From Spirochaetales bacterium (GTDB lineage Bacteria > Spirochaetota > Spirochaetia > UBA9216), in the NCBI GenBank assembly GCA_016342585.1, contig JAEINK010000004.1:1-64000 (forward strand): 64,000 nucleotides of DNA, in the 5' to 3' direction. Shown here piece by piece: positions 31,837 through 62,923 of the stretch (position 1 is its first letter; every line of letters starts with the position of its first letter). The translations under genes were made by a program, and so were the position numbers. The notes under the pieces are model-generated. The model was not told the DNA's origin, ran no database searches, and saw only the letters and a list, made by a program, of their open reading frames with translations.

Positions 31837-31842
31837 TCAGTA

Positions 31843-33327: not shown

Positions 33328-33329
33328 AC

Positions 33330-35066: not shown

Positions 35067-35080
35067 AGGGGAGGCGAAAA

Positions 35081-37332: not shown

Positions 37333-38265
37333 ATGAGTCTTAAATTTGCTATCGCGCCATGTTCCTGGGGAATTGAAGATCCGGAAAACATAGATAATCC
37401 CCCCTGGAAGACGGTACTTGACGAAGCAGGTATGTCCGGCTTTATCGGTGTCGAGTTAGGTCCATATGGATATTTACCTGTAAATCCTTCTTTTTTAAGG
37501 GATTCCCTGGAATCAAAACAGCTTAATTTAATTGCTGGAACGCTTTATGATAACCTGACCGGAACTGCAGATTTAAATAATCTTAAGGAAAAAACCCGAA
37601 ATATCTGCAGGCTTCTTTCAGAAGTGCTGGAAAGCAAACAGAGAGGGTTTATAGTGATTATTGATCGTGTTAATGAAATGCGTAATAACACAGCGGGTCA
37701 TCCTGAATTGGCCCGGCGGATGAATACTGCAGACTGGAAGTTGATGATGGAAAATATCAGGATTGTTTCAAAGATCGCTGCTGAGGAATTCGGGATAAGG
37801 CCTGTTGTTCATCCCCATGCTGGTGGGTTTATTGAGTTCAATGATGAAACTGAAAAATTTCTCAACGATATACCGGGAAATGTGGCGGGATTATGTCTTG
37901 ATACAGGTCATCTGTACTATGCCGGGGATGATCCTGCACAAAGTCTGGTAAAATATTCATCAAGAGTAGATTATGTCCACTTTAAAGATATCAATAAGGA
38001 TGTCTATAAGAATGCGCTTGAAGAGAAGATGGGGTTCTTTGATGCCTGCAAGCTTGGTGTCATGTGTTCGATAGGACGAGGATGCGTTGATTACCGCTCT
38101 GTGTTTTCCGCTCTTGATAGGATTGATTATTCAGGATGGGTGACAATTGAGCAGGAACGAGACCCGAAAGATTACAGGGGTACATTGGATGATATTAAAA
38201 TGAGTTATGATTACCTTGTAAAAACGGTTGAATCACGGCCTGGCGGGGAGCACCGGTTCCTATGA
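37333..38265 (+). CDS. TIM-barrel sugar isomerase/dehydratase, inosose dehydratase (IolE)-like
   Basis: 310 aa of the xylose-isomerase-like TIM-barrel (AP_endonuc_2) family. IAPCSWGIEDPENIDN and GFIGVELGPYGYLP resemble the start of IolE-type inosose dehydratases. The metal ligands appear as PVVHPHAGG, LCLDTGHLYYAG, VDYVHFKDI and IEQERDP. IolE converts scyllo-inosose to diketo-deoxyinositol, the substrate of IolD; no other IolE candidate is in the window, and it shares the LacI operator with the iolBCJD operon. The sequence is diverged from classical IolE, so a related dehydratase or epimerase on another inosose isomer is possible. Confidence 0.7.
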   Translation: MSLKFAIAPCSWGIEDPENIDNPPWKTVLDEAGMSGFIGVELGPYGYLPVNPSFLRDSLESKQLNLIAGTLYDNLTGTADLNNLKEKTRNICRLLSEVLESKQRGFIVIIDRVNEMRNNTAGHPELARRMNTADWKLMMENIRIVSKIAAEEFGIRPVVHPHAGGFIEFNDETEKFLNDIPGNVAGLCLDTGHLYYAGDDPAQSLVKYSSRVDYVHFKDINKDVYKNALEEKMGFFDACKLGVMCSIGRGCVDYRSVFSALDRIDYSGWVTIEQERDPKDYRGTLDDIKMSYDYLVKTVESRPGGEHRFL

Positions 38266-38331: not shown

Positions 38332-39342
38332 CTATCTTTTTTTACCTTTCAAATATGCTTCATGCATGAGTATGCAATACTTCAGAGCCGCAGTACCATC
38401 TTCAGCAGTTATATCGGGTTTGCGGCCTTCGATGATACAGTTTGTAAAATCTTTAATCTCATTGAAGAAAGCTTTTTCCCAGCGTTCTCTGAAATCATGC
38501 TGACACTCTTCCTGGTAACCTTGTTCAGTGAATTGTCCGACATAATTAGTTCTGGGTATAGTATTGACGGTTAAAGTGCCTTTTGTTCCCACTATTTCCG
38601 TTGCTACATGTGAGCAGGTATGAGTTCTTCCTACATGAATATAAGCAGAAGCCCCATTTGCAAAACGTGAGAGAGAAAATCCGTTATCATAATCATTATA
38701 TTTATCTAATTCTTCACAAACATATGCATCTCCGGTTGCCAGACACTCTTCCGGCTCGTCTTCAAGGAACCACCTGGCCAAGTCAGCATCATGGCTTCCC
38801 ATTTCAATAAACCATGGCATGTAAATTCCACGTTTTACTCTTTCAAGATGGGCGTCAAGTACTGATGATGGATCAAGACTGATACCTCTGAAATGGATAG
38901 GCCGTCCTATAGCACCTTTTTTAATTTTATCCTTTGCAGCCATATATGAAGGATCAAAACGCCGCATGAACCCCAGAGTAAAAAATCTATTCTCGTTTGA
39001 AGCTACAGCTTCTTCGATTATCCTGCAATCTTCCAATGTTTTTGCCAATGGTTTCTCACAGAAAATATGTTTTTCAGCACTGCAGGCTTTCACAACATGC
39101 TCTCTGTGCATATCCGATCCGGTAGCTACTATCACAGCCTCTATTTCAGGGTTTCTAAGCATTTTGTCATAGTCCGTGTACCCGTTCGCAACGTCGAATT
39201 CTTCCTGTAATTTACGGATTTTGGTTTCATTTCTTGCACAAATAGCTACAACTTCTGCACCAGGAAGGCTGTTCTGTAAATTTTCAAGGTGGGTTCTCCC
39301 CATTTGACCTGTTCCGACTATGCCATATCGAATTTTTCTCAA
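38332..39342 (-). CDS. Gfo/Idh/MocA-family dehydrogenase (inositol 2-dehydrogenase-like)
   Basis: 336 aa. Rossmann motif YGIVGTGQMGRTHLENL, the catalytic EKPLA segment (HIFCEKPLAKT), and the second catalytic region MGSHDADLARWFL. The family contains myo- and scyllo-inositol dehydrogenases that use NAD(P). I choose the TTG at 39342, which has AAAGGAGG 10 nt upstream and directly precedes the Rossmann strand; the longer frame from 39444 runs through a repeat element and adds 34 meaningless residues. It faces the IolE-like gene and lies downstream of the GntR regulator gene on the same strand. Whether it oxidises myo-, chiro- or scyllo-inositol cannot be told. Confidence 0.83.
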   Translation of the reverse strand: MRKIRYGIVGTGQMGRTHLENLQNSLPGAEVVAICARNETKIRKLQEEFDVANGYTDYDKMLRNPEIEAVIVATGSDMHREHVVKACSAEKHIFCEKPLAKTLEDCRIIEEAVASNENRFFTLGFMRRFDPSYMAAKDKIKKGAIGRPIHFRGISLDPSSVLDAHLERVKRGIYMPWFIEMGSHDADLARWFLEDEPEECLATGDAYVCEELDKYNDYDNGFSLSRFANGASAYIHVGRTHTCSHVATEIVGTKGTLTVNTIPRTNYVGQFTEQGYQEECQHDFRERWEKAFFNEIKDFTNCIIEGRKPDITAEDGTAALKYCILMHEAYLKGKKR

Positions 39343-39369
39343 AATAATGATTCCTCCTTTATTCGAGCC

Positions 39370-39464
39370 GGGTTTAATACCCCGCGGCTTTCTGCGTAAT
39401 GATTTCTTTGATGTAAGAAAAATGCTTAACCAAAGTAAATCCATGCCTGCGGGGTATTAAACCC
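39370..39464. repeat. REP-like inverted repeat (two outward copies of a 16-bp motif)
   Basis: GGGTTTAATACCCCGC (39370-39385) and its exact complement (39449-39464) flank 63 bp in the gap between the GntR and Gfo/Idh/MocA genes. The left copy continues as GGCTTTCTGCG, like the hairpin at 43391-43424. The arrangement resembles bacterial REP/BIME elements. It also places a long stem in the mRNA leading into the dehydrogenase gene. Confidence 0.65.
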
Positions 39465-39495: not shown

Positions 39496-39525
39496 CCTCG
39501 AGCTTGCTCCGGGGAGAGTCATTGT
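39496..39525. repeat. Degenerate REP-like hairpin at the gntR 3' end
   Basis: CCTCGAGCTTGCTCCGGGG (39496-39514) folds as a bulged hairpin, and CCGGGGAGAGTCATTGT (39509-39525) is repeated exactly at 58871-58887, next to the stop of the second lacI. Both copies overlap or abut a regulator stop codon. It may be a remnant of the same repeat family as 39370-39464. Confidence 0.4.
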
Positions 39526-40241
39526 TTTCCTATCTTCTCTTCGAGCAACTGGTCTATATTCCTTATATGATGCCGGTAGGTTTCTGCTGCCCTAGTGTAA
39601 TCTCCTTCTATCAGCGCATTTATCAGCATTTCATGTCTTTGAGGAATGGCCATCAGCTGTTCCATATCTTTCTGGGAATCTGCGATCTCCTTTACCATAA
39701 AATTTTTCATGGTTCTGTAGAGATTGTTGAAAATACTGTTTTCGCAAACCTCAATAATATGTCCATGAAAGCTGTAATCCGCATTGAGCCTGCCTTCAAT
39801 ATCATTTCTATTTACAGCGGCATTCATCTTTTCAATTTCAAGTTGAAGTTTTTTTATAGTTGCTTCTTTCAGGTTTTTATCGTCCCTGCGATAGTCAAGA
39901 AGGTACCACAGGCCCTGTTGTTCCATAACAATTCTCATCTCGATAATCTCGGAAAAATCCTTATGTCCCAGCAGCATAGACCATTCAAGGGCTTCAGAAG
40001 AAATATTTGAACTTTCACAGATAAAAGTACCTTTGGGATTTCTTAGTTCGACCACGCCCATATACTGAAAGATCTTCAACACTTCTCTGATTGTTGATCG
40101 ACCTACTCCGAACATGTCCGCTAGTTCATATTCGTTTGGCATCTTGTCTCCCGGCTTAAGCGTACCGTCTACAATGAGCTGTTTCAGCTGTTCCATTATC
40201 TGAAATGTAACAGTCTTCTGTTTAACTGGTTTTATATCCAT
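39519..40241 (-). CDS. GntR-family (FCD/FadR type) transcriptional regulator
   Basis: 240 aa from the ATG at 40241 (GGAG 5 nt upstream); a longer TTG-initiated frame exists. Winged helix: TFQIMEQLKQLIVDGTLKPGDKMPNEYELADMF, GVGRSTIREVLK, GVVELRNPKGTFI. The all-helical FCD sensor (about 95-230) contains the metal-type residues D/H in LNADYSFHGHIIEV and RHEMLINALIEGD. FCD regulators sense sugar acids and uronates, which suits divergent control of iolN-iolO-iolM-iolG-uxaE. A palindromic operator candidate sits on that promoter. Confidence 0.92.
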   Translation of the reverse strand: MDIKPVKQKTVTFQIMEQLKQLIVDGTLKPGDKMPNEYELADMFGVGRSTIREVLKIFQYMGVVELRNPKGTFICESSNISSEALEWSMLLGHKDFSEIIEMRIVMEQQGLWYLLDYRRDDKNLKEATIKKLQLEIEKMNAAVNRNDIEGRLNADYSFHGHIIEVCENSIFNNLYRTMKNFMVKEIADSQKDMEQLMAIPQRHEMLINALIEGDYTRAAETYRHHIRNIDQLLEEKIGKQ

Positions 40242-40308
40242 GACTTCTCCAAAATCTATTGTATTTACAATCTGCTTGTCTTTCAATACAAAATTAGAAA
40301 ATCAGCTC

Positions 40309-40345
40309 TTGACAAACATTTTAACTGTGATATGATAATATCATA
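40309..40345 (+). promoter_or_regulatory. Promoter and putative GntR operator of the iolN operon
   Basis: TTGACA (40309-40314), a 16-nt spacer, and TATGAT (40331-40336) form a good sigma-70 promoter. The -10 is embedded in the perfect odd palindrome TATGATA-A-TATCATA (40331-40345), a probable repressor site for the divergent GntR protein. Confidence 0.65.
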
Positions 40346-40382
40346 CTATCATCAGATGGTACAGAAGTTTTAAGGAGTGAAT

Positions 40383-41495
40383 ATGGCAGTTGTAGACAAA
40401 AAATGGTTAACCACTGATTATCCGCATATAATTTTCGAGGATAATGCGGTTGGTCAGTTGAAGAAAAGAATTTTTGATGCACCGATGGATGAAATAGAGA
40501 AGATTCTTGAAGATTATGGAGTAGGGGCTGAGTCAGAACTTGGCAAAGCAGGATGTTACATTCAAAACACCCCTCGCAAAGAAGCCATCGAAAAACGAAA
40601 GAAAAATGATATTGTCCTGGTTCCAATCGGATGTTCTGAAAATCATGGTGATCATGCTAATGTTGGCCTGGATACCTTTATGGTTACCCAGATAATTGAG
40701 GCTGTAAGAAGAAAAACTGCCAAACAGGGTAGAGAAGTAAACCTGGCTTTTTCACCGATCAATTACGGTGGACACCCCTACCACCATATGGGCATGCCCG
40801 GAACAGTAATCATTCCCCCTGAAACAGTACGGGAAATGCTTATTTATACCATGCTCGGACTGTGGAATGATGGTTATCGCAAAATTATTCTTTTTAATAA
40901 CCATGGGCATCTGTGGACTCTGGTGGATGCGATTCAGGAATTCATGAAGAGATTCAGTCTTCCCGCAATTGTTCAGGTTGTGGACTGGCATAGAGCGGTA
41001 AGAGAATTTTTTATGCCTATCAACCGTGAGGATTCCCTTACTACTAACTTTATTCATGCAGATGAGGCTGAGACGTCAGTAGGCCTATTGATGTTCAAGG
41101 ATATGATCAATATGGATTATGTCAGAGATGCCGAGGGTGAAACTTTTTTGCCTGATGGACACTTTGACCTTTCCGTTGATCCTTACAGACGTCCTCACAG
41201 ATGGTCTGAGGGAGAAGGACATTATGCGATCGAACGATTTGTCACTCCCGAAGGAGTCGTCGGATCCCCAAGCAAGGCTACTGCAGAAAAAGCAAAACGC
41301 CCTATCGCAGCTATCTGTGAATATACAACCATGATGGTTAATGATATTCTTGATGCATTTCCAGCGGGTACAGTTCCAGACAAAGTTTCCTTAAGAACCG
41401 ATGAGGAACTTGCTCCTTTCCTGAAAGAACCCTGGACTGAAGGGTGGAAGTCCGTTTATGAACTTCCCCATATCGGACCTTTTCATAAAGGTTAA
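40383..41495 (+). CDS. iolN: 3-dehydro-scyllo-inosose hydrolase (creatininase family)
   Basis: 370 aa from the ATG at 40383 (AAGGAG upstream). Creatininase-fold metal ligands are visible: VLVPIGCSENHGDHANVGLDTFM, NYGGHPYHHMGMPGTV, ILFNNHGHLWTL and ADEAETSVGL. In the Thermotoga maritima inositol pathway IolN opens diketo-inositol to 5-keto-L-gluconate. Assignment rests on the fold plus immediate neighbours iolO and iolM, which encode the enzymes after and before it. It is longer than creatinine amidohydrolases (about 260 aa), with an N-terminal extension of about 70 residues. It is first in a five-gene operon under the GntR-type promoter. Confidence 0.82.
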   Translation: MAVVDKKWLTTDYPHIIFEDNAVGQLKKRIFDAPMDEIEKILEDYGVGAESELGKAGCYIQNTPRKEAIEKRKKNDIVLVPIGCSENHGDHANVGLDTFMVTQIIEAVRRKTAKQGREVNLAFSPINYGGHPYHHMGMPGTVIIPPETVREMLIYTMLGLWNDGYRKIILFNNHGHLWTLVDAIQEFMKRFSLPAIVQVVDWHRAVREFFMPINREDSLTTNFIHADEAETSVGLLMFKDMINMDYVRDAEGETFLPDGHFDLSVDPYRRPHRWSEGEGHYAIERFVTPEGVVGSPSKATAEKAKRPIAAICEYTTMMVNDILDAFPAGTVPDKVSLRTDEELAPFLKEPWTEGWKSVYELPHIGPFHKG

Positions 41496-41498
41496 TGT

Positions 41499-42326
41499 AT
41501 GAAGTATTCGATGTGTCTGTCCACCAATCCTGCAAAATTCGATGCGGTACCCTTCAAAGGGGATTTTGAAGTCAATGTCAAAAAAATTGCTGAATTAGGA
41601 TTTAACGGGGTTGAGCTGGCGATACGGGATCCTGAAATCATCGATAAAGAGGAGATCTTTCGAATCCTGGATGAAGCAGGAATGGGAGTCCCCGCTATCG
41701 GTACAGGTCAGGCCTGGGGAGAAGAGGGGTTGTCATTTACAGATCCGGATTCTGCAGTCAGGAAAAAAGCTGTTGACAGAGTCCTCTCTCATATTGATTT
41801 TGCTTCTAAAACCGGAGGAACCATTATTATTGGTTTGTTACGGGGAATATTAAGAGCAGAAGTGTCTGCGGAAAGAGCTGAAAGCTGGATGAAGGAAGCC
41901 TTTGAAATCTGCTGTTGTGAGGCGGAAAAAGAAGGGGTCAAAATTGCTTTTGAACCTATTAACAGGTACGAAACATCCCTTCTGAATTCTGTTGAAGATG
42001 GGTTGAAGTTTATTGACCGTATCGGTTCGGACAATCTTGGAATGCTGCTGGATACCTTCCATATGAATATAGAAGAACCCTCGATTGAAGAGAGTATAAA
42101 GCTGGCAGGCGACAGGATGTTTCATTTCCACTATGCGGATTCCAACAGACTTTACCCGGGTGGGGGGCATATTGATTTTAAGTCCGTGCTTAAAGCTGTC
42201 TTTGATATAGGTTACACAGGTTTCCTGTCTGGAGAACACAGGCCGGATCCTGAACCGGCTATTGCAGCGATAAACGGACTTAAATACTTAAAGCAAATTG
42301 AGAAAGAGATTAAAGAGGAGAAATAG
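41499..42326 (+). CDS. iolO: 5-keto-L-gluconate epimerase (IolO-like)
   Basis: 275 aa TIM-barrel epimerase. As I recall the T. maritima IolO (TM0416) sequence, the pattern matches closely: STNPAKFDAVPFKGDF at the N-terminus, AIGTGQAWGEEGLSF, TIIIGLLRG, FEPINRYETSLLNSV and LDTFHMNIEE with metal ligands, then FHFHYADSNRLYPGGGHIDF. IolO converts 5-keto-L-gluconate to D-tagaturonate. The start is 3 nt after the iolN stop and the end is 2 nt before iolM, so the three are translationally linked. Confidence 0.88.
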   Translation: MKYSMCLSTNPAKFDAVPFKGDFEVNVKKIAELGFNGVELAIRDPEIIDKEEIFRILDEAGMGVPAIGTGQAWGEEGLSFTDPDSAVRKKAVDRVLSHIDFASKTGGTIIIGLLRGILRAEVSAERAESWMKEAFEICCCEAEKEGVKIAFEPINRYETSLLNSVEDGLKFIDRIGSDNLGMLLDTFHMNIEEPSIEESIKLAGDRMFHFHYADSNRLYPGGGHIDFKSVLKAVFDIGYTGFLSGEHRPDPEPAIAAINGLKYLKQIEKEIKEEK

Positions 42327-42328
42327 GG

Positions 42329-43387
42329 ATGAAAGCAAAAATAGCGTTTCTTTACGGACCAAAAGATTTAAGGGTTGAAGAGGTCGAAGTGCCTAAACTT
42401 AAGCCAAATCAGGTTTTGATCAAAACCGGAGCATGCGGAATTTGCGGTTCCGATGTTGAGTGTTATGAAGGTGAATCCGCGGAAGGCCGATATGATCTCG
42501 GTCCATATACTCCGGGTCATGAGTGGGGCGGACAGATCGTAGAGATTGGCTCGGGCTTAAGAAGTACTCTCAAAGTGGGAGATAAGGTTACAGGTGACTG
42601 TGTAATGGGCTGCGGTGTTTGTGCCAATTGTAAAGACGGTCGAATGCCTTCTGCTTGTTTGAATTTCAGAGAGATTGGATTTAGGCCCGATTCTCCCGGT
42701 GGTATGGGAGAATATATGGTTGTAGAGGAAGAATATGTTCATAAAATTCCCGATAACTGGACTTATGCAGATGGTGCCTGGGTAGAAACATTTTCCATCG
42801 GTTATTACGGAATTTGGGGTAACGGTGGTTATATAGATGCCAGCGATACAGCTATCATTTTGGGTGCGGGACCTGTTGGACTTTCTGCTTCCATGGTCGC
42901 TGCCACCTCCGGTGCTAAGGTAATCGTTATTGATCCTCTGGCAAAGCGTAGAGAGATTGCCAAAAAGTATGGTGCCGAAATCGTTCTTGATCCGTCAACG
43001 GGAGATATTGAGAAGCAGGTTATGGAAGTAACCAATGGACATGGTGGAGATGTATGTGTTGAAGCATCCGGTAATGACAATGCGATTGCCTCCCTTTTTG
43101 ATATTTCCGCTCATAGTGGAAGAGTCAGAGTTATCGGTCACTCCATCGGACGCAAAGTTCCTGTCGAGATCGGTAAAACAATCTGGAAAACATTGAATAT
43201 TGCCGGATCCGGTGGAACAAAGGATTTTGGTCAGAGAACCATTCGTTTTATGGATCGCATCTACAATAAATATGATTTTGCAGCATTGAATTCTCATCAC
43301 TATAAATTTTCACAATTGGATGAAGCCATGGAAGTTGCAATTCATCAGAAAGCAAACGCCATGAAGGTTATGCTTAACTTTGATTAA
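42329..43387 (+). CDS. iolM: Zinc-dependent alcohol dehydrogenase, scyllo-inosose 3-dehydrogenase (IolM-like)
   Basis: 352 aa MDR-family enzyme. Catalytic zinc ligands: Cys in ACGICGSDVECY and GHE in YTPGHEWGG. The structural zinc loop is present but unusual: CVMGCGVCANCKDGRMPSAC. The NAD site is ILGAGPVGLSASM. In the T. maritima route this class oxidises scyllo-inosose to the diketone hydrolysed by IolN. The assignment is by context; motif-wise it could also be a generic sorbitol or threonine dehydrogenase. Confidence 0.8.
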   Translation: MKAKIAFLYGPKDLRVEEVEVPKLKPNQVLIKTGACGICGSDVECYEGESAEGRYDLGPYTPGHEWGGQIVEIGSGLRSTLKVGDKVTGDCVMGCGVCANCKDGRMPSACLNFREIGFRPDSPGGMGEYMVVEEEYVHKIPDNWTYADGAWVETFSIGYYGIWGNGGYIDASDTAIILGAGPVGLSASMVAATSGAKVIVIDPLAKRREIAKKYGAEIVLDPSTGDIEKQVMEVTNGHGGDVCVEASGNDNAIASLFDISAHSGRVRVIGHSIGRKVPVEIGKTIWKTLNIAGSGGTKDFGQRTIRFMDRIYNKYDFAALNSHHYKFSQLDEAMEVAIHQKANAMKVMLNFD

Positions 43388-43390
43388 ACA

Positions 43391-43424
43391 ATTAATAACC
43401 CCGCGGTTATCTGCGGGGATAATT
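43391..43424 (+). repeat. REP-like hairpin between iolM and the downstream dehydrogenase gene
   Basis: CCCCGC (43399-43404) pairs with GCGGGG (43413-43418) in ATTAATAACCCCGCGG...; the left half resembles the 39370 element. It is followed by a weak second stem (AGGGA/TCCCT near 43435-43475). It lies in the 127-nt gap inside the operon and could give partial termination or protect the upstream mRNA. Confidence 0.5.
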
Positions 43425-43514
43425 TCAGGGAAAGTCAGGGATATAGTATGGTCCCTACCTTTCTTTACATCTGTAAACATTTCCTGTTTACATTTCTTGC
43501 ATTAAGGTGGTTTT

Positions 43515-44534
43515 ATGGAAAAGAAAAGATTGGGGATTATTGGCCTCGGGAGACTGGGCTTCGAGCACGCATCAAATATTCATCATAATATTCACGAGGC
43601 CGAACTTACGGCTGTCTGCAGCGTTGTTGAGAAGGAACTTGAAACGGCGAAGGAACATTTTAATCCGGAAATTATTACAAAAAATTATCGCGATTTGTTT
43701 GACACTGAAAAACTTGACGGTATTGTTATTGCTACAAACTCGCAGACCCACTGTGAGATTATCTGTGCCGCGGTTGAGGCCGGTGTCAAGAATATCTATA
43801 CCGAGAAACCACTTGGTCTCTCTATGGACGAAATAGTTAAAATCAAGGAAACAGTTGAATCTGCAGAAGGCCTTATCTTTCAGGTTGGTTACAATCATCG
43901 ATTTGATAAAAACCTTATGGAAGCGAAGCAGAAAATTGATGATGGATTCATCGGCAAACCGATTTTAATTAGAATGGAGTCACGTGATCAGGCGGGAATT
44001 GAAGAGTTTATTGTAAAATTCAGCCCCACAAGCGGCGGTTTTATAGCCGATATGATGACACATGATTATGATACAGCAAGATGGTTTACCGGTTCAGAGG
44101 CTGATACTATCTACGGTGTAGGCGGAGTATATGCGTATGAAGGCTTGAAAGCCTGTAACGATATGGATAATACTTCAATCCTGATGAAGTTTAAGAACGG
44201 CGTGATGGTGATTCTTACCGCAAGCCGGAACAGTGCATACGGCTATCATGCGCCTATGGAAATTTTTGGTACCGAAGGCAGTATAAAAGTTGGTGATTTT
44301 TCATACAATACCAAGAATCACTATATGAATAAAGACGGTATAAACCGGAAATGTTCAGAATGGTTCTATGAATACTGGCAGGATACTTACAAAGCGGAAA
44401 TGGCCGACTTTGTCGCCTGTGTATGCGAAAAGAGGGAACCGAAAGTAAATTATTTAGATGGTTTCAAGGCTGTGGAATGGGCAATCCTTGCTGACAAGGC
44501 CGTTAAGAACGGTGAAATAGTAAAGTTAGATTAA
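43515..44534 (+). CDS. Gfo/Idh/MocA dehydrogenase, inositol 2-dehydrogenase (IolG-like)
   Basis: 339 aa. Rossmann motif LGIIGLGRLGFEHASNI, the catalytic TEKPLG strand and the MMTHDYDTARWFTG region with the catalytic Asp/His. This is the family and position of IolG in the T. maritima inositol operon, which oxidises myo-inositol C2 to scyllo-inosose. It is closer to the enzyme at 54821 (shared LGRLGF and SPxSGG) than to that at 38332. It belongs to the iolNOM-uxaE operon, 127 nt after iolM and 23 nt before uxaE. Confidence 0.85.
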   Translation: MEKKRLGIIGLGRLGFEHASNIHHNIHEAELTAVCSVVEKELETAKEHFNPEIITKNYRDLFDTEKLDGIVIATNSQTHCEIICAAVEAGVKNIYTEKPLGLSMDEIVKIKETVESAEGLIFQVGYNHRFDKNLMEAKQKIDDGFIGKPILIRMESRDQAGIEEFIVKFSPTSGGFIADMMTHDYDTARWFTGSEADTIYGVGGVYAYEGLKACNDMDNTSILMKFKNGVMVILTASRNSAYGYHAPMEIFGTEGSIKVGDFSYNTKNHYMNKDGINRKCSEWFYEYWQDTYKAEMADFVACVCEKREPKVNYLDGFKAVEWAILADKAVKNGEIVKLD

Positions 44535-44557
44535 ATTTTGGAGAGAAAATTCAATTT

Positions 44558-46063
44558 ATGAGTACTGACCGAATTGAAAAACAATGGATACAGGATATTG
44601 CAGAAAAGGCGGTTTTGAATATTGAAGGATTGCCTGACAATGAAAAAGTAGATGTATATCTCGAATCTGAACGAAGTTATGATTTAGCTACATTTGCCTC
44701 AATAAGGTTTATGGGTACCGATTATCTCATGATAGTTTCAGAGATAGAAGCTGATTATGAGTTCAAAGGTAAATCAACGATAATCGATGATCATCTTGTT
44801 CTTATATGTCCAGAAAATGATGAAAATGTGTCAGTACTCAGAAAGCGGTTTCCTTTTACCAATCCATCGGAGATCGGTAAAGCAAAAAGTACATTTGGTG
44901 TAGGTGACAGGCTCGGAATTGCCGGGCCGGGTCACCTTCGTGTGTTTAACAACACTGACATGATCCCGGTACTTGCTCAGCAGTCACTGAGAGAGCTGGA
45001 ATTAACAGGGAGAAAATACACCGACATCATAGCGGCGGCTTCATGGTCTGTATATAAAAGCGGTTACAGTGGCCCGTGGGCGGCAGATGGAGACCATCTG
45101 AAACATGCCGAAGATGTAAGTTCTGCCGTAGAGCAGGGATGTACGATGATAACAGCCGATCTTTCTGACCATATTGGTTTCAATATACCGGGATTAACCA
45201 ATGCTGAAGTTCGAAAACTCTATAATAAGCTTGACGCCGGGTATCGCAGCAGGGTTGAAGAAGCATATAACGGAAAAATATCACTCAGCAGCGGGTTGGT
45301 CCTGAATTTTGACCCGGAAGTTCTGGCTTCTGTCGTGTTGACCTATAAAAATGCTATACAGCATGCGGGCGTCCTCTATAATGCGGCTATGTTATACCGT
45401 GAATCACTTGATTTCGAGATTTCTATTGATGAAACTGAGCTTCCGACAACTTTAGAAGCACATTACTTTGTCGCAAGAGAGCTTATGCATGAAGGTATCA
45501 GATTTACTTCGATTGCTCCCCGTTTTGTTGGTGAATTCCAGAAAGGGATTGATTATATTGGAAATCTCGATGATTTTGAGACAGATTTTGAAGGCCACGC
45601 CGTTATTGCAGCAGATCTTGGTTATAAAATATCAGTTCATTCTTCCAGTGATAAGTTTTCTGCATACCCGATAATTGCAAAAAAACGAAAAGGTTCTTTC
45701 CATTTGAAAACTTCCGGAACAAACTGGCTGATCGCTCTTGAGGTAGTTGCAGTGAATGATCCTGAGCTCTTCAGGACTGTATTCACCTATGCTTACGAAA
45801 TCTTCTCCATTGCACGGGCTTATTACCATGTGACACCGGACATGAGTATAAAAACGGATCTTACCACAAAGAGTGATAATGAGCTGCTTGAAGTTTTTAA
45901 AAATCCTACCGATCGGCAGGTCCTTCATATTTCATACGGCGAAGTATTCAAGATGGCGGAAATGAAGAGAAGACTTTTTTATGTTTTTAATAACAATATA
46001 TCCGATTACTGGGACAGACTTGAAAATCATATTGGCAGGCATATTGAGATGCTCGATTCATGA
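44558..46063 (+). CDS. uxaE: D-tagaturonate epimerase (UxaE-like)
   Basis: 501 aa, the usual size for UxaE. Diagnostic blocks are STFGVGDRLGIAGPGHLRVF, VLAQQSLRELELTGR, ADGDHLKHAEDV and TMITADLSDHIGF, matching the tagaturonate-fructuronate epimerase family first assigned in T. maritima. It would convert the D-tagaturonate made by IolO to D-fructuronate, which joins the hexuronate pathway (mannonate, KDG). This gives the operon a complete route from inositol to a central uronate. Fructuronate reductase and mannonate dehydratase are not in the window. Confidence 0.87.
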   Translation: MSTDRIEKQWIQDIAEKAVLNIEGLPDNEKVDVYLESERSYDLATFASIRFMGTDYLMIVSEIEADYEFKGKSTIIDDHLVLICPENDENVSVLRKRFPFTNPSEIGKAKSTFGVGDRLGIAGPGHLRVFNNTDMIPVLAQQSLRELELTGRKYTDIIAAASWSVYKSGYSGPWAADGDHLKHAEDVSSAVEQGCTMITADLSDHIGFNIPGLTNAEVRKLYNKLDAGYRSRVEEAYNGKISLSSGLVLNFDPEVLASVVLTYKNAIQHAGVLYNAAMLYRESLDFEISIDETELPTTLEAHYFVARELMHEGIRFTSIAPRFVGEFQKGIDYIGNLDDFETDFEGHAVIAADLGYKISVHSSSDKFSAYPIIAKKRKGSFHLKTSGTNWLIALEVVAVNDPELFRTVFTYAYEIFSIARAYYHVTPDMSIKTDLTTKSDNELLEVFKNPTDRQVLHISYGEVFKMAEMKRRLFYVFNNNISDYWDRLENHIGRHIEMLDS

Positions 46064-46148: not shown

Positions 46149-47402
46149 TTAGACCCTAGGCTTCAACGCTGATATGAAAAATTTATCGTATGCAAAAACA
46201 GCAGCGCCATGAAGCACGGCATCTACTTCATTCTGTTTATAACGAATGACAGTGCTGTGTTTTTTAATTCTTGGCAGAACTATCGTATTCAGTTTATCGG
46301 CAAGCCCATCCTCAAAATACTTGCAGCCGTGGGCGTAATCGCCTTCTATATAAAGGACCTCGGGATCGAAAAACAGTAAGATATTCGCAATTACCTGTGA
46401 AAACCAATGAACAGAAAGATCCATAAGCTTACAGGCAATCACATCTCCTGCATCGGCCGCCTTAAAAATTGTAAAAATATCCAAAGTCTCGGTCTTATCC
46501 GCCAGAAGACTCATGTCATATGTTTTGGCAAGCTCCTTTGCCTGAACTCTTAACCGTTCTATCATGATCTGCTTTTCAAAACAGCCCCTCGAACCGCAGA
46601 AACATTCTTCCTGATCATCTAAATTGACCCTGATATGTCCCACTTCGCCTGAAGTAAAATGCTTGCCATGGAACAGTTTTCCGTTCATCATAATTCCGGC
46701 GGCCACTCCATGCCAGCCTGTATCAAGCAGGACAACGGACTCATGCTGGCCTACCAGTCCAAGCCTGTTTTCGCCGTATGTTTTAAGTCTGATCCAGTTG
46801 TCAACATATATAGGACAGGATAATTCAAGTTTTTCCATCAGAATCTGACCAATATTCCTGTTTACTCCCCATGAATGAAAGTGCGTAGCCTGAAGACAGA
46901 CTCCTGTATTGTGATCGATGTTACCATGAAGGCCAATAATACAGGTAAGAAATTCTGCGCCTTTCAAATCATCGTTTTCATTTATCCATCGGCTAATCAT
47001 GCCCTGAATTATCTTAACAATATGAAGAAATTTCGATGATTTTTTCATCGATGCTGAATTTGCAACGAGAATATTATAATTTAAATCAAATACCCTGAGC
47101 TCTATCCTTTCATATAGGATATAGAACGCTATAATAAGATTTTTTCTATTATTAAACTGGTAAATCAAGGGCTTTTTACCGCCCAATTCTGTAGATTGCC
47201 TTTTTCCGGTCTCTATAATCAGATCTTCATTTAGAAGATTATGATTTACTTTCATGACTGTGGTTCGGCTGAGGCCGGCGAGTTTTGAAATTTCCGTTAC
47301 AGAAAGCTCTTTATACTGATGATAAAGTTCAAGCAGTACCATTTTGTTTTGGAAACGTATATTCTGTGGTTTTCGTCCTGGCTTTTTGATTTTTTCAGTC
47401 AT
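46149..47402 (-). CDS. ROK-family transcriptional regulator (copy 1)
   Basis: 417 aa. N-terminal winged helix (LSVTEISKLAGLSRTTVMKVN) and a ROK sugar-sensor domain with the zinc-finger-like CFCGSRGCFEKQ and metal His in GEVGHIRVNLDD. The ATP-binding motifs are weak, as in regulators without kinase activity. It is a paralogue of the ROK gene at 52393 (shared STELGGKKPLIY and FHSWGVN/FRSWKPK segments). T. maritima inositol genes are also ROK-controlled, so it is a candidate for sensing an inositol intermediate. It converges with uxaE. Confidence 0.9.
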   Translation of the reverse strand: MTEKIKKPGRKPQNIRFQNKMVLLELYHQYKELSVTEISKLAGLSRTTVMKVNHNLLNEDLIIETGKRQSTELGGKKPLIYQFNNRKNLIIAFYILYERIELRVFDLNYNILVANSASMKKSSKFLHIVKIIQGMISRWINENDDLKGAEFLTCIIGLHGNIDHNTGVCLQATHFHSWGVNRNIGQILMEKLELSCPIYVDNWIRLKTYGENRLGLVGQHESVVLLDTGWHGVAAGIMMNGKLFHGKHFTSGEVGHIRVNLDDQEECFCGSRGCFEKQIMIERLRVQAKELAKTYDMSLLADKTETLDIFTIFKAADAGDVIACKLMDLSVHWFSQVIANILLFFDPEVLYIEGDYAHGCKYFEDGLADKLNTIVLPRIKKHSTVIRYKQNEVDAVLHGAAVFAYDKFFISALKPRV

Positions 47403-48668: not shown

Positions 48669-49682
48669 TTATTTTTTTCCACTGTTACGCATGGTATCAA
48701 TAACTACAGCCCCTATAATGATCACACCTTTGAGAATCTGCTGCCAGTATGAGGAGACACCCAGAAGGTCAAGACCATTGTTCATAACACCAATGATCAG
48801 GGTACCTACCACGGTTCCTCCGATTGTGCCAATACCGCCCTGGAGACTGGTACCGCCGATAACGGCAGAAGCAATAGCATCAAGCTCGTACATCACACCG
48901 GCACTGGGCTGGCCTGCACTAACACGGGCCGTAAGAACAACAGCCGCAATACTGGTCAGGAAACCGGCCCAGGCGTAAACGAAGATTTTCTGCTTAAAAA
49001 CATTTACACCACAGATGTAGGCAGCCTGTTCGTTTCCACCTAAAGCATAAGTGTTCTTACCGAACCTGGTTCGGGAAAGAAGGAAGTGAGCAGCCAAAGC
49101 CATTATCAGGAAGATAATAACAGGAATCGGAATGAAAAAGTTCTGCCCTAACTCGAAAATCGATCCTTGCCCTATAAATTGGAAAGTCTCTGTAAGGTTA
49201 TCAATAGGACGGCCTCCGGTGATCAGATATCCCAGGCCACGGGCAGAAACCATCATACCCAGGGTTGCGATAAACGGCGGGATCCTGAATTTTGCATGAA
49301 GGAATCCGTTGATTCCACCTGCGGTAAGACCCAGCGCCAGCGCTGCAATGATGGGGACAATCACTGGAAGAGAATAAATCTCCCGGGCCAACATTGCTGT
49401 AAGACAACCTATCAACGCTACAAGAGAACCGGAGGAAAGATCAATACCACCGGTGATAATGATAAACGTTACCCCCAGAGCGATAATACCGATTACCGAT
49501 GACTGTCTCAGTACGTTTACTATATTTCGAAACTTCAGGAAGATCGAAACACCATTATTTATTGTAAGAATCGAAATGAGAATACACATTCCGATAAAGA
49601 TGAGAAAGATTCCCCACTTATTGACAAAACTACGCAAGTCAAATTGTTTTTTTCCGGCAGCAGCCGTTACCTCATTGCTCAT
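48669..49682 (-). CDS. ABC transporter permease, ribose/inositol (RbsC) type
   Basis: 337 aa from the ATG at 49682, 9 nt after AAGGAGG; an ATG three codons earlier abuts the Shine-Dalgarno. The BPD_transp_2 core is clear: ALGVTFIIITGGIDLSSGSL, FIATLGMMVSARGL, FALGGNEQAAYICGVNV-like coupling loop (YALGGNEQAAYICGVN). About nine membrane helices. It is last in the binding protein, ATPase, permease operon (52245 to 48669) and would form the homodimeric channel. Location in the inositol region suggests cyclitol uptake; ribose or another monosaccharide cannot be excluded. Confidence 0.9.
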   Translation of the reverse strand: MSNEVTAAAGKKQFDLRSFVNKWGIFLIFIGMCILISILTINNGVSIFLKFRNIVNVLRQSSVIGIIALGVTFIIITGGIDLSSGSLVALIGCLTAMLAREIYSLPVIVPIIAALALGLTAGGINGFLHAKFRIPPFIATLGMMVSARGLGYLITGGRPIDNLTETFQFIGQGSIFELGQNFFIPIPVIIFLIMALAAHFLLSRTRFGKNTYALGGNEQAAYICGVNVFKQKIFVYAWAGFLTSIAAVVLTARVSAGQPSAGVMYELDAIASAVIGGTSLQGGIGTIGGTVVGTLIIGVMNNGLDLLGVSSYWQQILKGVIIIGAVVIDTMRNSGKK

Positions 49683-49698
49683 ATTTAGCATCCTCCTT

Positions 49699-51207
49699 TT
49701 AATCAGTAAGCTTTTCGCCGGAAGCCAGAGTCAGAACTTTTTCCTGCGTGGCTTCCTCCCGGCTTAATTCACCGGCTTTGTCACCTTCATGCATAACGAT
49801 GATACGGTCGCTCATGCCCAATATCTCCGGCATTTCCGATGATACCATGACGATGGCCTTGCCCATCTGGGCTAATTTCGACATCAGTTTATGAATTTCA
49901 GATTTAGCGCCTACATCAATACCACGGGTAGGTTCGTCCAGAAACAGAACATCAGGTTCTGTTAATAGCCATCTCGCAATAAGAACCTTCTGTTGATTCC
50001 CTCCGCTGAGATTAAGAATTAACTGGTTGAGACTGGGAGTCTTTACGGCAAGAGCTTGCCGCTGTGTCTCGCAATCCTTCTCAATCCTCTTGAAATCCAA
50101 TCCGGTACGGGTCACATAATCTTGAATATTGGATGCCACCATATTATCGCGTACAGAAAGAGGTAGAAAAAGCCCTGACATCTTCCTGTCTTCAGTAAGC
50201 AATCCCAGACGATGTTTAATAGAATCTATGGGTTGTTTGATTTCTGCTGGTTTTCCATCAATCAGGATTTCACCGGAATCAGGAGGATAAACACCAAATA
50301 TACTTTCAATCACTTCTGTTCTTCCGGAACCCATGAGACCGGCAATTCCTAAAATTTCTCCTTTACGGACCTCGAAAGACACATCTTTGAACTTGCCTTC
50401 CAGAGAAATATTACGAACTTCAAGCTTTACATCGGTGATTTCTGCATCTGCCTTGGGAAAGAAGTTGGTAAGCTCACGGCCGACCATCATAGAGATGAGT
50501 TTATTTTTATCGATATCTGAAGCCTTTTCGGTGCCGACGTATTGGCCGTCCCGCAGGATTGTGACATCATCGGAAATTTCAAAAACCTCATCCATCTTAT
50601 GGGTGATGTATATTATTGCAACATTCTTGTCCCGGAGGTTGTTGATCATTCTAAAGAGATGTGCAACCTCTTTTTCAGTGATCGCCGATGTGGGCTCATC
50701 CATGATAACCAGTTTAGAGTTGTAAGATATTGCCGTAGCAATTTCGATCATCTGCATATTTGCAATACTCAGATTAACCATCTTTGTGGTTGGATCAATA
50801 TCAATATCAAGGCCTTTAAGAAGTTCACTGGTTTGCTCGTTTAGCTTCTTGTGGTCAACCCAACCTACCATTTTACTAATCAACGGCTCCCGGCCGAGAT
50901 AAATATTTTCGGCAACTGTCATATGCAGAATGGGAGAAAGCTCCTGATGTATCATAGAGATACCGTGCTTCAAGCTGCTGTGGATGTCCATGTGTGTATG
51001 TTCAACACCGTCAAAATGAATACTTCCTTCTTCGGGGTGATGGATTCCAAGAAGCACCTTCATCAGTGTTGATTTTCCGGCACCATTCTCACCCATCAGG
51101 GCATGAACTGTTCCCGGGCGTACCTTCAGCTGTACACCATCCAGCGCCAAAACGCCAGGAAACTGTTTTCTAATATTCTCCATTTCTAGGAGAAATTCTT
51201 CCGCCAT
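49699..51207 (-). CDS. ABC transporter ATP-binding protein, ribose/inositol (RbsA) type
   Basis: 502 aa with two nucleotide-binding domains. First: GENGAGKSTLMK, LSIANMQMIEIA signature region, KLVIMDEPTSAI. Second: degenerate Walker A GLMGSGRTEVIE, LSGGNQQKVLIARW, VLFLDEPTRGIDVGAKSEI. This is the CUT2 class, energising uptake by the RbsC-like permease. It is separated from the upstream binding-protein gene by an 81-nt gap with a strong hairpin and from the permease by 16 nt. Confidence 0.93.
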   Translation of the reverse strand: MAEEFLLEMENIRKQFPGVLALDGVQLKVRPGTVHALMGENGAGKSTLMKVLLGIHHPEEGSIHFDGVEHTHMDIHSSLKHGISMIHQELSPILHMTVAENIYLGREPLISKMVGWVDHKKLNEQTSELLKGLDIDIDPTTKMVNLSIANMQMIEIATAISYNSKLVIMDEPTSAITEKEVAHLFRMINNLRDKNVAIIYITHKMDEVFEISDDVTILRDGQYVGTEKASDIDKNKLISMMVGRELTNFFPKADAEITDVKLEVRNISLEGKFKDVSFEVRKGEILGIAGLMGSGRTEVIESIFGVYPPDSGEILIDGKPAEIKQPIDSIKHRLGLLTEDRKMSGLFLPLSVRDNMVASNIQDYVTRTGLDFKRIEKDCETQRQALAVKTPSLNQLILNLSGGNQQKVLIARWLLTEPDVLFLDEPTRGIDVGAKSEIHKLMSKLAQMGKAIVMVSSEMPEILGMSDRIIVMHEGDKAGELSREEATQEKVLTLASGEKLTD

Positions 51208-51233
51208 TTTGTTCTCCTTATCGCGATGTATAC

Positions 51234-51262
51234 AGAACCGGCGCCTTTACGGCGCCGGTTCT
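51234..51262 (-). other. Strong intercistronic hairpin between binding protein and ATPase genes
   Basis: AGAACCGGCGCC (51234-51245) pairs perfectly with GGCGCCGGTTCT (51251-51262), loop 5 nt, with no T-run after it. Such stems after a binding-protein gene commonly protect its mRNA, giving more binding protein than ATPase. Confidence 0.75.
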
Positions 51263-51288
51263 AGATTTACGATATTACTATGTATGGT

Positions 51289-52245
51289 TTATTCCCATTT
51301 AGCAATGAATTCGTCTACCTTGTCCAAAGTTACGGGCAGGAAGGGGATGTCGGTAATCTTGGGAAGCTCTTCGCCATTTACAGCGGCAATAGCAGCACCG
51401 ATACAGGCAAATCCCTGACCATAGGCATCCTGGAATACGGTTACATCAATTTTTCCGGCTTTTAGAAACTGGAGAGCATCGGGAGTGGCATCAACACCGG
51501 CGATGAATACATCATCCAGCATACCAACCTGCTCAAGAGCCATGGCAGCACCGATGGCACTTTCGTCGTTGTTAGCTACAACTGCATCGATATTGGTTCC
51601 TTTCTGAATCCAGTTTTCCATAAGCTGAAGAGCCTTGGCTCTCTGCCACTCGGAAGTTCCTTCAAGAACAACGTTGATGTCGGGGTACTGGTCGAAAATC
51701 TGCATGTTACCACGAGTACGTCCCTGCTCAGCGGGATGACCAAGCTGACCGTGGATAATTACAACATCACCTTTTCCACCGAGGAGATCAGCAATAGCTT
51801 CACCCTGAACGGTTCCGGCGAATTCTTCGTTGGAACCTACAAATGTTGCCAGTCGGCTCAGCTCAGGTTCAGCGGGAAGTCGGTTAACTGCTACAACGGG
51901 GATTCCGGCAGCTTCAGTTTCATCAAGAATCGGAGCCATTGCCTGAATCTGACATGGAACCAGGATGATGGCGTCTACACCCATGGTGATAAACGTGTCA
52001 ATCTGGCCCTGCTGTACTGCGGAGTCGTTCTTTCCGTCTACCATAGTGATTTTAACACCGGCTTCTTCAGCTGCAATTTCAAAACCCTCGTGCATGTAGG
52101 ACATCCACTTGTCGTCGAATGATGCTGCTGCAACACCTATGTGAAGCTGTTTCTCTCCGCCGTCCTGCTGTCCACCGGCAAAAACAAATGTTGCGCTCAC
52201 AATCATCAGAACCAGCATAATCAATCCAATCTTCTGTAATTTCAT
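51289..52245 (-). CDS. Sugar/inositol ABC transporter substrate-binding protein (RbsB type)
   Basis: 318 aa. Signal peptide MKLQKIGLIMLVLMIVSATFVFAGGQQ (no lipobox). A Peripla_BP_4 two-lobe fold follows: IGVAAASFDDKWMSYMHEGF, AIILVPCQIQAMAPILDE, VVAVNRLPAEPELSR, ANNDESAIGAAMALEQVG and AGVDATPDALQFLKAG. The family includes ribose, galactose and inositol (IbpA) binding proteins. It is the first gene of the CUT2 operon, downstream of a same-strand ROK regulator gene. Inositol is the favoured ligand only because of the surroundings. Confidence 0.9.
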   Translation of the reverse strand: MKLQKIGLIMLVLMIVSATFVFAGGQQDGGEKQLHIGVAAASFDDKWMSYMHEGFEIAAEEAGVKITMVDGKNDSAVQQGQIDTFITMGVDAIILVPCQIQAMAPILDETEAAGIPVVAVNRLPAEPELSRLATFVGSNEEFAGTVQGEAIADLLGGKGDVVIIHGQLGHPAEQGRTRGNMQIFDQYPDINVVLEGTSEWQRAKALQLMENWIQKGTNIDAVVANNDESAIGAAMALEQVGMLDDVFIAGVDATPDALQFLKAGKIDVTVFQDAYGQGFACIGAAIAAVNGEELPKITDIPFLPVTLDKVDEFIAKWE

Positions 52246-60219: not shown

Positions 60220-60253
60220 CTTTAGTGTGTTTAATTATTTACAAGGAGTAATT

Positions 60254-61060
60254 ATGGGTCTGGAAGCAAAAAATAAAATTAAAAACAGGGAAGGGTTTAA
60301 ACCCGGCTATACCGAAATCGTCTCCAAGCAAGCAAATCCGGAAATGTTGATGACTTTCGGTGTTTTAAAAATATTGAAGGGTGAAAGTTTTTCGAATGAT
60401 GAAAGCCTTGAAAGAATATTTTTGCTGTTGCATGGGACAGTAGAGCTATCCTGGGATGGTAATTCGATAAAGATTGAACGAGGAACACTCTTTGATGATG
60501 ATCCAAGGACTCTTCACCTTCCCAAAAGTGTGAAGGTCGATATAAAATGTCTTTCTGATGAAGCAGAGTTTTCGGTTCATAAAACAGAAAATGATAAAGT
60601 TTTTCCTTCAAAACTTTATGGTTCAGAGGAGTTGGTAAAAGAGGTTCGGGGAAAAGGTACTATGAACGAAACCGGTACCCGCCTGGTTCGAACGATTATT
60701 GATTACTCAATCAATTCCGATGCAAACCTCATGATTGGAGAAGATGTGCAGTACCCTGGTAGATGGGCAGGCTTTCCTTCACATTCCCATAACCAGCCTG
60801 AAATTTATTTTTACAGATTTTTACCAGAAAACGGTTTTGGACTCCTTAAGCTTGGGGATGAGGGTGTTTGTCTTGAGCAGGATGATACCTGTATTATTCC
60901 AATGAATCTTGTACATCCTCAGGTTGCGGCACCGGGTTATGCCATGTATTTTCTGTGGGTTATTCGACATTTGGATGGAAATCCATATTTGGGTCCTGAT
61001 TTTGAAGAGCAGCATTTATGGGCCGAGAAACCTGATGCTAAAATCTGGCCGGATAAATAG
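60254..61060 (+). CDS. iolB: 5-deoxy-glucuronate isomerase
   Basis: 268 aa from the ATG at 60254 (AAGGAG 5 nt upstream); the longer frame adds nine residues. A bicupin: the second cupin carries WAGFPSHSHNQPEIYFYRFLPENGFGLL with metal His/His/Glu, and MNLVHPQVAAPGYAMYFLWVIRH with the last His, both diagnostic of IolB. It converts 5-deoxy-D-glucuronate, the IolD product, to 5-keto-2-deoxy-D-gluconate. It is first in the iolBCJD operon under LacI control. Confidence 0.93.
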   Translation: MGLEAKNKIKNREGFKPGYTEIVSKQANPEMLMTFGVLKILKGESFSNDESLERIFLLLHGTVELSWDGNSIKIERGTLFDDDPRTLHLPKSVKVDIKCLSDEAEFSVHKTENDKVFPSKLYGSEELVKEVRGKGTMNETGTRLVRTIIDYSINSDANLMIGEDVQYPGRWAGFPSHSHNQPEIYFYRFLPENGFGLLKLGDEGVCLEQDDTCIIPMNLVHPQVAAPGYAMYFLWVIRHLDGNPYLGPDFEEQHLWAEKPDAKIWPDK

Positions 61061-61074
61061 GAGTCCAATCAGGA

Positions 61075-62067
61075 ATGTTAGAATTTGGCAGGAATAAGAA
61101 AATTGACATTGTTGCTCTTGGTCGTGCCGGTATCGATTTGAACGCTGTCGAGATGAATGTCCCGATGGAAGATAATATGATCTTCCGGAAGACTGTGGGC
61201 GGTTCTCCTGCCAACATTGCCGTAGCCTGTTCACGATATGATCTGAATGTGGGGTTTATCGGCAGGGTCTCTGATGACCAGCATGGGAAATATATCAGGA
61301 AATACTTTAAATCAAAAGGGATAAATACTGATAATCTGATCACCGATAAAGACGGCGGAATGAACGGACTGGCTTTCACCGAGATTAAATCTTCTATGGA
61401 TAGCAGTTATATTCTTCATCGGGATAATGTATCCGACCTGAATTTAAGTATTGAAGACATCGACGAGGAGTATATAAAAAATACAAAATTCCTTGTGATT
61501 TCCGGTACAGCATTATCAAAAAGTCCTTCACGCGAAGCTGTCTTTGCTGCTCTTGAATATGCGGAAAAACATGATACAAGGGTTATGCTCGATATTGATT
61601 ACAGGGACTACACCTGGAAATCGGCTGAGGCCAGTGGAATCTATCTCTCACTGGCTGCGGAAAAGTGTGATGTGATTATTGGTACCCGTGAAGAATTTGA
61701 TATGCTGGAGAAATTTTCTATTCCTGGTAATCATGATGATTCTGTGACGGCAAATAGATGGTTTGACTATAAAGGGAAGGTCATCATTGTAAAACATGGA
61801 AAAAAAGGGTCTTTTGCCTATACCAGTGATGGCAAGGTTATAGAGGGCGTTGTTTTCCCTGTGACACCACTTAAAACCATGGGGGCTGGCGACTCATATG
61901 CCGGTGGCGTCATTTACGGTTTACTCTCCGGTAAGGCCGTTGCCGAGGCTATGGAGATTGGTGCCGGTGCGGCAGCCATTGTTGTACAAAAACCCGACTG
62001 TTCAGAATCCATGCCGACCTTAGAAGAAATCCAGGATTTTATATCCAACTACAGGGCGGGAAAGTAG
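61075..62067 (+). CDS. iolC: 5-dehydro-2-deoxygluconokinase
   Basis: 330 aa PfkB-family kinase. ALGRAGIDLNAVE and VGGSPANIAVACSRY are the IolC-type substrate region; MGAGDSYAGGVIYGLLSG contains the anion-hole Gly and catalytic Asp. It phosphorylates 5-keto-2-deoxygluconate with ATP, giving the substrate of the aldolase IolJ encoded next. It starts 14 nt after iolB and ends 4 nt before iolJ. General PfkB sugar kinases are an alternative, but the operon fixes the call. Confidence 0.93.
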   Translation: MLEFGRNKKIDIVALGRAGIDLNAVEMNVPMEDNMIFRKTVGGSPANIAVACSRYDLNVGFIGRVSDDQHGKYIRKYFKSKGINTDNLITDKDGGMNGLAFTEIKSSMDSSYILHRDNVSDLNLSIEDIDEEYIKNTKFLVISGTALSKSPSREAVFAALEYAEKHDTRVMLDIDYRDYTWKSAEASGIYLSLAAEKCDVIIGTREEFDMLEKFSIPGNHDDSVTANRWFDYKGKVIIVKHGKKGSFAYTSDGKVIEGVVFPVTPLKTMGAGDSYAGGVIYGLLSGKAVAEAMEIGAGAAAIVVQKPDCSESMPTLEEIQDFISNYRAGK

Positions 62068-62071
62068 GCAA

Positions 62072-62914: not shown

Positions 62915-62923
62915 GGAGAGAGT

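Follow-up and report, generated by a model that had tools for sequence, protein, structure and literature searches.

A conserved iolN-to-uxaE operon in a Spirochaetales bacterium and its proposed part in inositol breakdown

Positions 1 to 64,000 of the forward strand of contig JAEINK010000004.1, a stretch hereafter called the window, come from the draft genome of a Spirochaetales bacterium (GCA_016342585.1; 5.0 Mb, 97% complete) and form part of contig C2 of that genome. Five successive plus-strand genes in this window join a ring hydrolase family protein, IolN, and an epimerase family protein, IolO, to the tagaturonate/fructuronate epimerase UxaE. This is a real and conserved operon, although two gene names and the label "Thermotoga-type" in its initial annotation need correction. 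On balance, we favor the view that the operon, located beside a complete classical inositol route, encodes a variant form of the oxidative-hydrolytic inositol pathway in which the second dehydrogenase is a different one (here called ADH2) and control is by GntR. Literature searches on IolN/IolO/IolM, on UxaE with inositol, on 5-keto-L-gluconate with inosose and on diketo-inositol returned no description of an ADH2/UxaE variant, although the founding Thermotoga paper of 2013 may already cover part of the distribution reported below. The five open reading frames, the first of which opens at 40377 with its ATG at 40383, are as follows; scores are given throughout as bits/cut-off, from NCBIfam equivalog models and Pfam applied to the proteins of the operon and of the genome.

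40383..41495, plus strand: iolN (long clade), 3-dehydro-scyllo-inosose hydrolase family, creatininase fold (NF041098, 296.4/245)
41499..42326, plus strand: iolO, 5-keto-L-gluconate epimerase family (NF041099, 323.2/300)
42329..43387, plus strand: ADH2, zinc medium-chain dehydrogenase at the place of IolM (IolM model, 211.5/450; zinc motifs present)
43515..44534, plus strand: iolG-like inositol dehydrogenase relative (TIGR04380, 299/355; best PDB match 4mkx, 203 bits)
44558..46063, plus strand: uxaE, tagaturonate/fructuronate epimerase (PF16257, 524.7/27.1)

IolN, IolO and UxaE belong to the families to which they had been assigned, and the reported gene order is correct, whereas the names IolM and IolG could not be kept, as both proteins fall below the cut-offs of those models. 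The best PDB match of IolO is TM_0416 (2zvr, 224 bits). UxaE, the only copy in the genome, matches the Cohnella UxaE structure 6ilb with 355 bits, and its residues E146 and D179 align with the catalytic Glu126 and Asp159 of the Cohnella enzyme if a one-residue numbering offset is assumed. For ADH2, the IolM model is the top one yet is not satisfied, the score resembles those of threonine dehydrogenases, and no protein in the whole genome exceeds the IolM cut-off. The order GntR regulator / iolN-iolO-ADH-iolG-uxaE recurs in Spirochaeta sp. UBA2779 (L063) and in L062, where uxaE is broken across reading frames; the adjacency is therefore not due to chance, and the placement of UxaE in one cluster with an IolN/IolO-type route was borne out.

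We propose that inositol is taken up, probably through a neighboring CUT2-type ATP-binding cassette (ABC) transporter, and that the IolG-like enzyme would oxidize it to an inosose, which isomer is used being itself a matter of prediction. ADH2, in the position that IolM has in Thermotoga, would then convert the inosose to a diketone, the ring of which would be hydrolyzed by IolN to a 5-keto-hexonate. IolO would epimerize this product to D-tagaturonate, and UxaE would interconnect D-tagaturonate and D-fructuronate, in a direction that family membership leaves to prediction. Tagaturonate would leave through UxaB and UxaA to 2-keto-3-deoxygluconate (KDG), whereas fructuronate would probably be converted to mannonate by a short-chain dehydrogenase/reductase (SDR) and the mannonate to gluconate by a LarA-type epimerase, with Gnd acting next. 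The iolN promoter is probably under repression by a GntR/FCD protein. Cleavage of a 1,3-diketone by IolN was deduced from what its substrate and product are called; stereochemical bookkeeping under this assumption gives 5-keto-D- or 5-keto-L-gluconate from the scyllo diketone, and D-tagaturonate or D-fructuronate, or their mirror images, from diketones that retain one cis pair.

IolN proteins over the cut-off were found in 12 of 60 genomes (this one and relatives), with 14 matches falling into two groups: five high-scoring proteins (495-534 bits; open frames of 322-353 residues) and nine long ones (282-315 bits; 373-390 residues), among them the IolN of the window. Two genomes carry both kinds, and a tree of 91 rows separates them with full support. 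The residues aligned with the creatininase metal site, which we take to be the metal-binding ones of this fold in the IolN alignment, are conserved in both long and canonical proteins, and many long IolN genes have an IolM relative beside them, of which that in L044, the only one scanned, reaches 510 bits. Since the metal-site residues are kept and IolM is a neighbor, proteins of the long clade probably have the same kind of activity.

The closest relatives of the window IolN, both on the tree and in the species-genome search, are Spirochaetaceae records, which supports the spirochaetal origin suggested initially and places the window in the Spirochaetota. Its nearest relatives on the tree come from Spirochaetota and Thermodesulfobacteriota, and nothing in these trees, which hold no named Thermotogota gene, points to transfer from Thermotogae. 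The comparison with Thermotoga was made through NCBIfam scores and the PDB entries for TM0412, TM0414 and TM0416, of which we take 3ip1 to be TM0412 and 3ezy to be TM0414; the latter matches the IolG of the classical operon with 344 bits and that of the studied operon with 178 bits. In T. maritima, IolG, IolM, IolN and IolO, encoded within TM0411-TM0416, reportedly form the inositol pathway described by Rodionova and colleagues in 2013. Shared with it are IolN and IolO over their cut-offs, and the grouping of dehydrogenases, hydrolase and epimerase in one cluster; here, in contrast, IolM is lacking, IolN is of the long kind, IolG is weaker, a GntR/FCD gene accompanies the ROK gene, UxaE lies within the cluster, and the transporter is of the CUT2 type. 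The operon is not a copy of the Thermotoga one, since its IolN belongs to a clade apart from the proteins of about 500 bits. "Thermotoga-type" in the strict sense is hence a misnomer, with IolN in a sister clade, a third gene other than IolM, and TM0414 closer to the classical operon's IolG.

To place the operon among others, 84 long-IolN loci were compared, namely 78 of 353 confirmed species-genome places (from Spirochaetota, Bacillota, Thermodesulfobacteriota, Atribacterota, Actinomycetota, Synergistota and Verrucomicrobiota), five loci from further genomes, and the window. Three loci taken as duplicates (L045, L048 and L049, of L102, L081 and L068) and one IolN fragment of L101 were dropped before counting, and five canonical IolN loci are present in the tree and stand outside the 84. 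Where a gene is absent near iolN the counts are lower bounds, because many contigs stop inside the cluster. Gene sets related to the operon, with one enzyme other than the textbook one, occur in many unrelated anaerobes. UxaE lies within 8 kb of the long IolN in 22 of the 84 loci, in several phyla, so that its linkage is not peculiar to this genome. In a tree of 36 UxaE proteins (the unlinked sample being from one phylum, and the fragments of L062 and L108 excluded), the 20 members from IolN clusters need at least four label changes, and a single clade was rejected (approximately unbiased test, p 2.1e-5). By this tree, UxaE joined long-IolN clusters more than once, and this repeated joining is the best evidence that it belongs to the pathway.

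It bears directly on the idea that UxaE is a mere neighbor serving hexuronate breakdown, in which glucuronate-derived fructuronate, formed by UxaC, would be turned into tagaturonate for UxaB and UxaA. UxaE is single-copy, the genome holds UxaC, UxaB and a UxaA-like protein and lacks UxuA, and in a sample of the phylum UxaE (25 of 296 genomes) occurs mostly without IolN (4 of 296), all as this idea would have it. In that sample, the two otherwise seldom meet. However, UxaE lies close to long IolN at 22 of the 84 loci and has reached such clusters repeatedly, and some genomes with the linkage, including the one-contig G030 and the isolate Sinanaerobacter, have no UxaC; we regard this explanation as very unlikely. 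In four other spirochaete records (L071, L075, L080 and L083), a long IolN has no ADH2, IolM, IolG or IolO relatives within 8 kb on the stretch covered, and unidentified genes shared among these records adjoin it.

ADH2, scored as a neighbor at 60% identity or more within 8 kb of long IolN, was found at 16 of the 84 loci, an IolM relative at 38, and neither at 30. As each is found near long IolN, both dehydrogenases appear to serve the same hydrolase. Across eight ADH2 clusters, mean identity is 78% for IolN, 79% for ADH2 (pairwise 71-96%), 65% for IolG, 48% for UxaE and 47% for IolO. By rows of the IolN tree (40 IolM rows for 38 loci, because L085 and L086 have two IolN each), UxaE is linked to 11 of 16 ADH2 rows and 4 of 40 IolM rows (Fisher p 2.6e-5). 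This association was rejected as proof, since the IolN tree shows just two switches of the label and there are no more than one or two independent pairs.

The identity of ADH2 also admits a cluster for L-gluconate, L-galactonate or a related sugar acid, in which ADH2 would form 5-keto-L-gluconate or tagaturonate, as LguD does together with the IolO-like LguG in Luteolibacter LG18, and IolN would have another role. ADH2 is distinct from IolM, its scores resemble those of threonine and other sugar-type zinc dehydrogenases, and in LG18 an IolO relative, LguG, works outside inositol breakdown, converting 5-keto-L-gluconate to tagaturonate (excerpts of PMC12632266). That pathway, however, starts at L-glucose or L-galactose, and neither IolN nor UxaE is among the genes described in those excerpts (PMC12632266). 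The ring hydrolase family protein is, with ADH2, the most conserved product of the cluster and pairs with IolM elsewhere, and classical iol genes adjoin the cluster in several genomes; a sugar-acid role is accordingly quite improbable. Inositol breakdown through tagaturonate also agrees with clusters such as L099 (IolM-IolN-IolG-IolO-UxaB-UxaA and a gene resembling the aldolase for 2-keto-3-deoxy-6-phosphogluconate, KDPG) and L125 (UxaB, KDPG aldolase, a KDG-kinase-like gene and UxaA adjoining iol genes), whose gene content connects what long IolN produces with tagaturonate and KDG.

Both exits are present in the genome of the window. On contig C13, tagaturonate reductase (UxaB, 658/359) adjoins a UxaA-like protein of the D-galactarate/altronate dehydratase family, and contig C49 carries UxaC (700 bits), a mannonate-oxidoreductase-like SDR (244/281), for which a PDB search gave nothing specific, a LarAH18 hexonate epimerase (648/500) and Gnd (760/427). 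The genome has no UxuA and no ManD over the cut-off. A dead end at UxaE, considered because UxuA is missing and the sole protein of the mannitol dehydrogenase family is tagaturonate reductase, was dropped in view of the SDR, LarA-type epimerase and Gnd on C49. As UxaB/UxaA and SDR/LarA-type epimerase/Gnd are both in the genome, UxaE would bridge two exits, and fructuronate would not be the end of the route. The statement that the operon gives a full route from inositol to fructuronate omits the tagaturonate exit and the classical operon on the same contig. According to excerpts of PMC7583248, a T. maritima LarA relative converts D-mannonate to D-gluconate, and group 18 may also act on hexonate. 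UxaE is also shared with the UxaR/UxaE hexuronate network of T. maritima (gnd, uxaE, uxaD, gntE and gntK, in excerpts of PMC3750489), as are UxaC, an SDR, a LarA-type hexonate epimerase and Gnd on C49; in contrast to that network, the sole uxaE here lies beside iolN and iolO, away from uxaC and gnd. The C49 locus itself (L168, G000:C49, 8460-14445), with uxaC, the SDR, the LarAH18 "putative hexonate epimerase" and gnd together, offers a context that could help to assign the LarAH18 group.

Downstream of the operon lie the transporter and the classical route.

48669..52245, minus strand: RbsABC-type (CUT2) sugar ABC transporter, with permease, ATPase and binding protein (sub-cut-off NCBIfam matches for permease and binding protein)
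60227..64000, plus strand: start of a complete classical iol operon (iolB-like, iolC, class II aldolase and iolD; profile scores)

The transporter sits between the two operons, and the best PDB match of its binding protein is 4yo7 (234 bits), the ligand of which we take to be myo-inositol, a literature search having given no confirmation. About 14 kb downstream of the studied operon, the classical one extends beyond the window to about C2:66742, with iolG and iolE following outside; IolC (375/300), IolD (879/715), IolG (462/355) and IolE (371/290) all exceed their cut-offs, whereas the IolB-like protein scores 76/205. A complete copy of the classical pathway (IolG, E, D, B, C and J) is present at 60.2-66.7 kb of the same contig. 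The studied operon differs from it in having no IolD, and by family its ring would be opened through different chemistry. Classical iolB/C/D genes share the stretch with long IolN at 6 of the 84 loci, four of them of the ADH2 type (the window, L100, L113 and L124) and none of the 38 of the IolM type, although the stretch searched was longer for the window.

The presence of two routes raises the possibility that the operon is a module for another inositol isomer or for other ring positions, yielding D-tagaturonate or D-fructuronate directly, with UxaE rather than IolO performing the essential epimerization. Otherwise, one substrate would have two routes on one contig; moreover, ADH2 and its IolG partner differ as a set from IolM and its partner, and L135, which has IolN and UxaE, lacks any IolO relative within 8 kb. 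In the bookkeeping, diketones of myo-, neo-, chiro-, epi-, muco- and allo-inositol that keep one cis pair lead to D-tagaturonate or D-fructuronate, depending on the side of cleavage. On the other hand, most ADH2 clusters have IolO next to UxaE, the IolO of the window scores above its cut-off, and two routes for one substrate are conceivable, for example under differing redox states. We consider this module possible but unlikely. Its more specific form is speculative and rather improbable: ADH2 and its IolG partner would have a regiochemistry different from that of IolG-IolM and leave a cis pair, IolN would release D-fructuronate or D-tagaturonate directly, and UxaE would be the key epimerase of a separate pathway for inositol or an inositol isomer, parallel to the classical one and overlooked in many anaerobes. 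The bookkeeping makes such a case conceivable.

Several observations weigh against the oxidative-hydrolytic inositol route that we favor. The IolG-like protein of the operon misses the inositol dehydrogenase cut-off, with a full-scoring IolG in the classical operon, and the SDR of the fructuronate exit misses its own. ADH2 may do something else, because L040 and L041 (G030 and G050) contain it within canonical IolO-IolM-IolN operons, where IolM is already present. Of the 18 genomes searched that have UxaE close to long IolN, UxuA exceeds the cut-off in four (G009, L100, L117 and L118) and tagaturonate reductase in three (the window, L117 and L118), and 13 have neither, including the one-contig G030 and the isolate Sinanaerobacter chloroacetimidivorans (L112), most of the others being drafts. 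The reference pathway is also unproven as a growth route, since excerpts of PMC3750489 report that T. maritima does not grow on inositol and that its IolR does not respond to it.

Control by a GntR/FCD protein rather than by ROK alone, as initially suggested, agrees with the divergent gene upstream of iolN, in addition to which a ROK gene is present; relatives of this GntR lie near long IolN at 10 of the 84 loci. Regulatory genes and elements are as follows.

39519..40286, minus strand: GntR/FCD regulator, divergent from iolN (Pfam GntR and FCD over cut-off)
40309..40336, plus strand: sigma-70-like promoter TTGACA-16-TATGAT, with TG ahead of the second hexamer (consensus scan, 11 of 12)
40344..40361, plus strand: imperfect inverted repeat TACTATCATCAGATGGTA, a candidate operator directly past the -10 box
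43388..43514, plus strand: structured intercistronic stretch between ADH2 and iolG, 127 bases, three predicted hairpins (fold z -3.55)
46149..47402, minus strand: ROK-family regulator, convergent, downstream of uxaE (Pfam ROK)

Such promoter-like sites are overall no commoner than in shuffled sequence; the TTGACA box recurs upstream of iolN in L047 and L061-L065. At the position equivalent to TACTATCATCAGATGGTA, which is only a candidate GntR operator, related ATCATCAGA repeats occur in L047 and L064, a looser CCATCAGA in L065 and a different palindrome in L061-L063. The genes from iolN to uxaE likely form one transcription unit. The gap between ADH2 and iolG contains the perfect inverted repeat TGTAAACATTTCCTGTTTACA (43472-43492), the sole site of zero mismatches in the window, and in L062 and L063 the same gap has a GC-rich, terminator-like hairpin followed by seven T; iolG-uxaE may therefore be expressed at a lower level than, or separately from, the genes nearest the iolN promoter. 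Rfam and tRNA scans of the window gave no matches.

Upstream of the regulator lie further genes.

37333..38265, plus strand: IolE-like TIM-barrel protein (TIGR04379, 174/290), with similar genes at 6 of the 84 long-IolN loci
38332..39444, minus strand: second IolG-like dehydrogenase (TIGR04380, 270/355)

Split transketolase genes occupy 34230-36046, and relatives of their halves occur near long IolN at 7 (tktC) and 6 (tktN) of the 84 loci, in L118 and L122 together with LarA genes of the malate racemase family. Aldehyde-dehydrogenase-like, CoA-hydrolase/transferase and HMGL-like genes lie at 30424-34220; past uxaE in L063, an HMGL-like gene (by eye) accompanies an 82% identical transketolase half.

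Sediments and guts commonly offer inositol as a substrate, and annotation would label a cluster of this kind as a fragmentary Thermotoga pathway or as unrelated sugar enzymes. In several phyla, UxaE has repeatedly been joined to the ring hydrolase, which suggests that tagaturonate or fructuronate is the real product; the exchanged dehydrogenase allows a clear test of the position at which the ring is oxidized. In genomes that hold both the classical route and this one, the question of why bacteria keep two becomes open to experiment.

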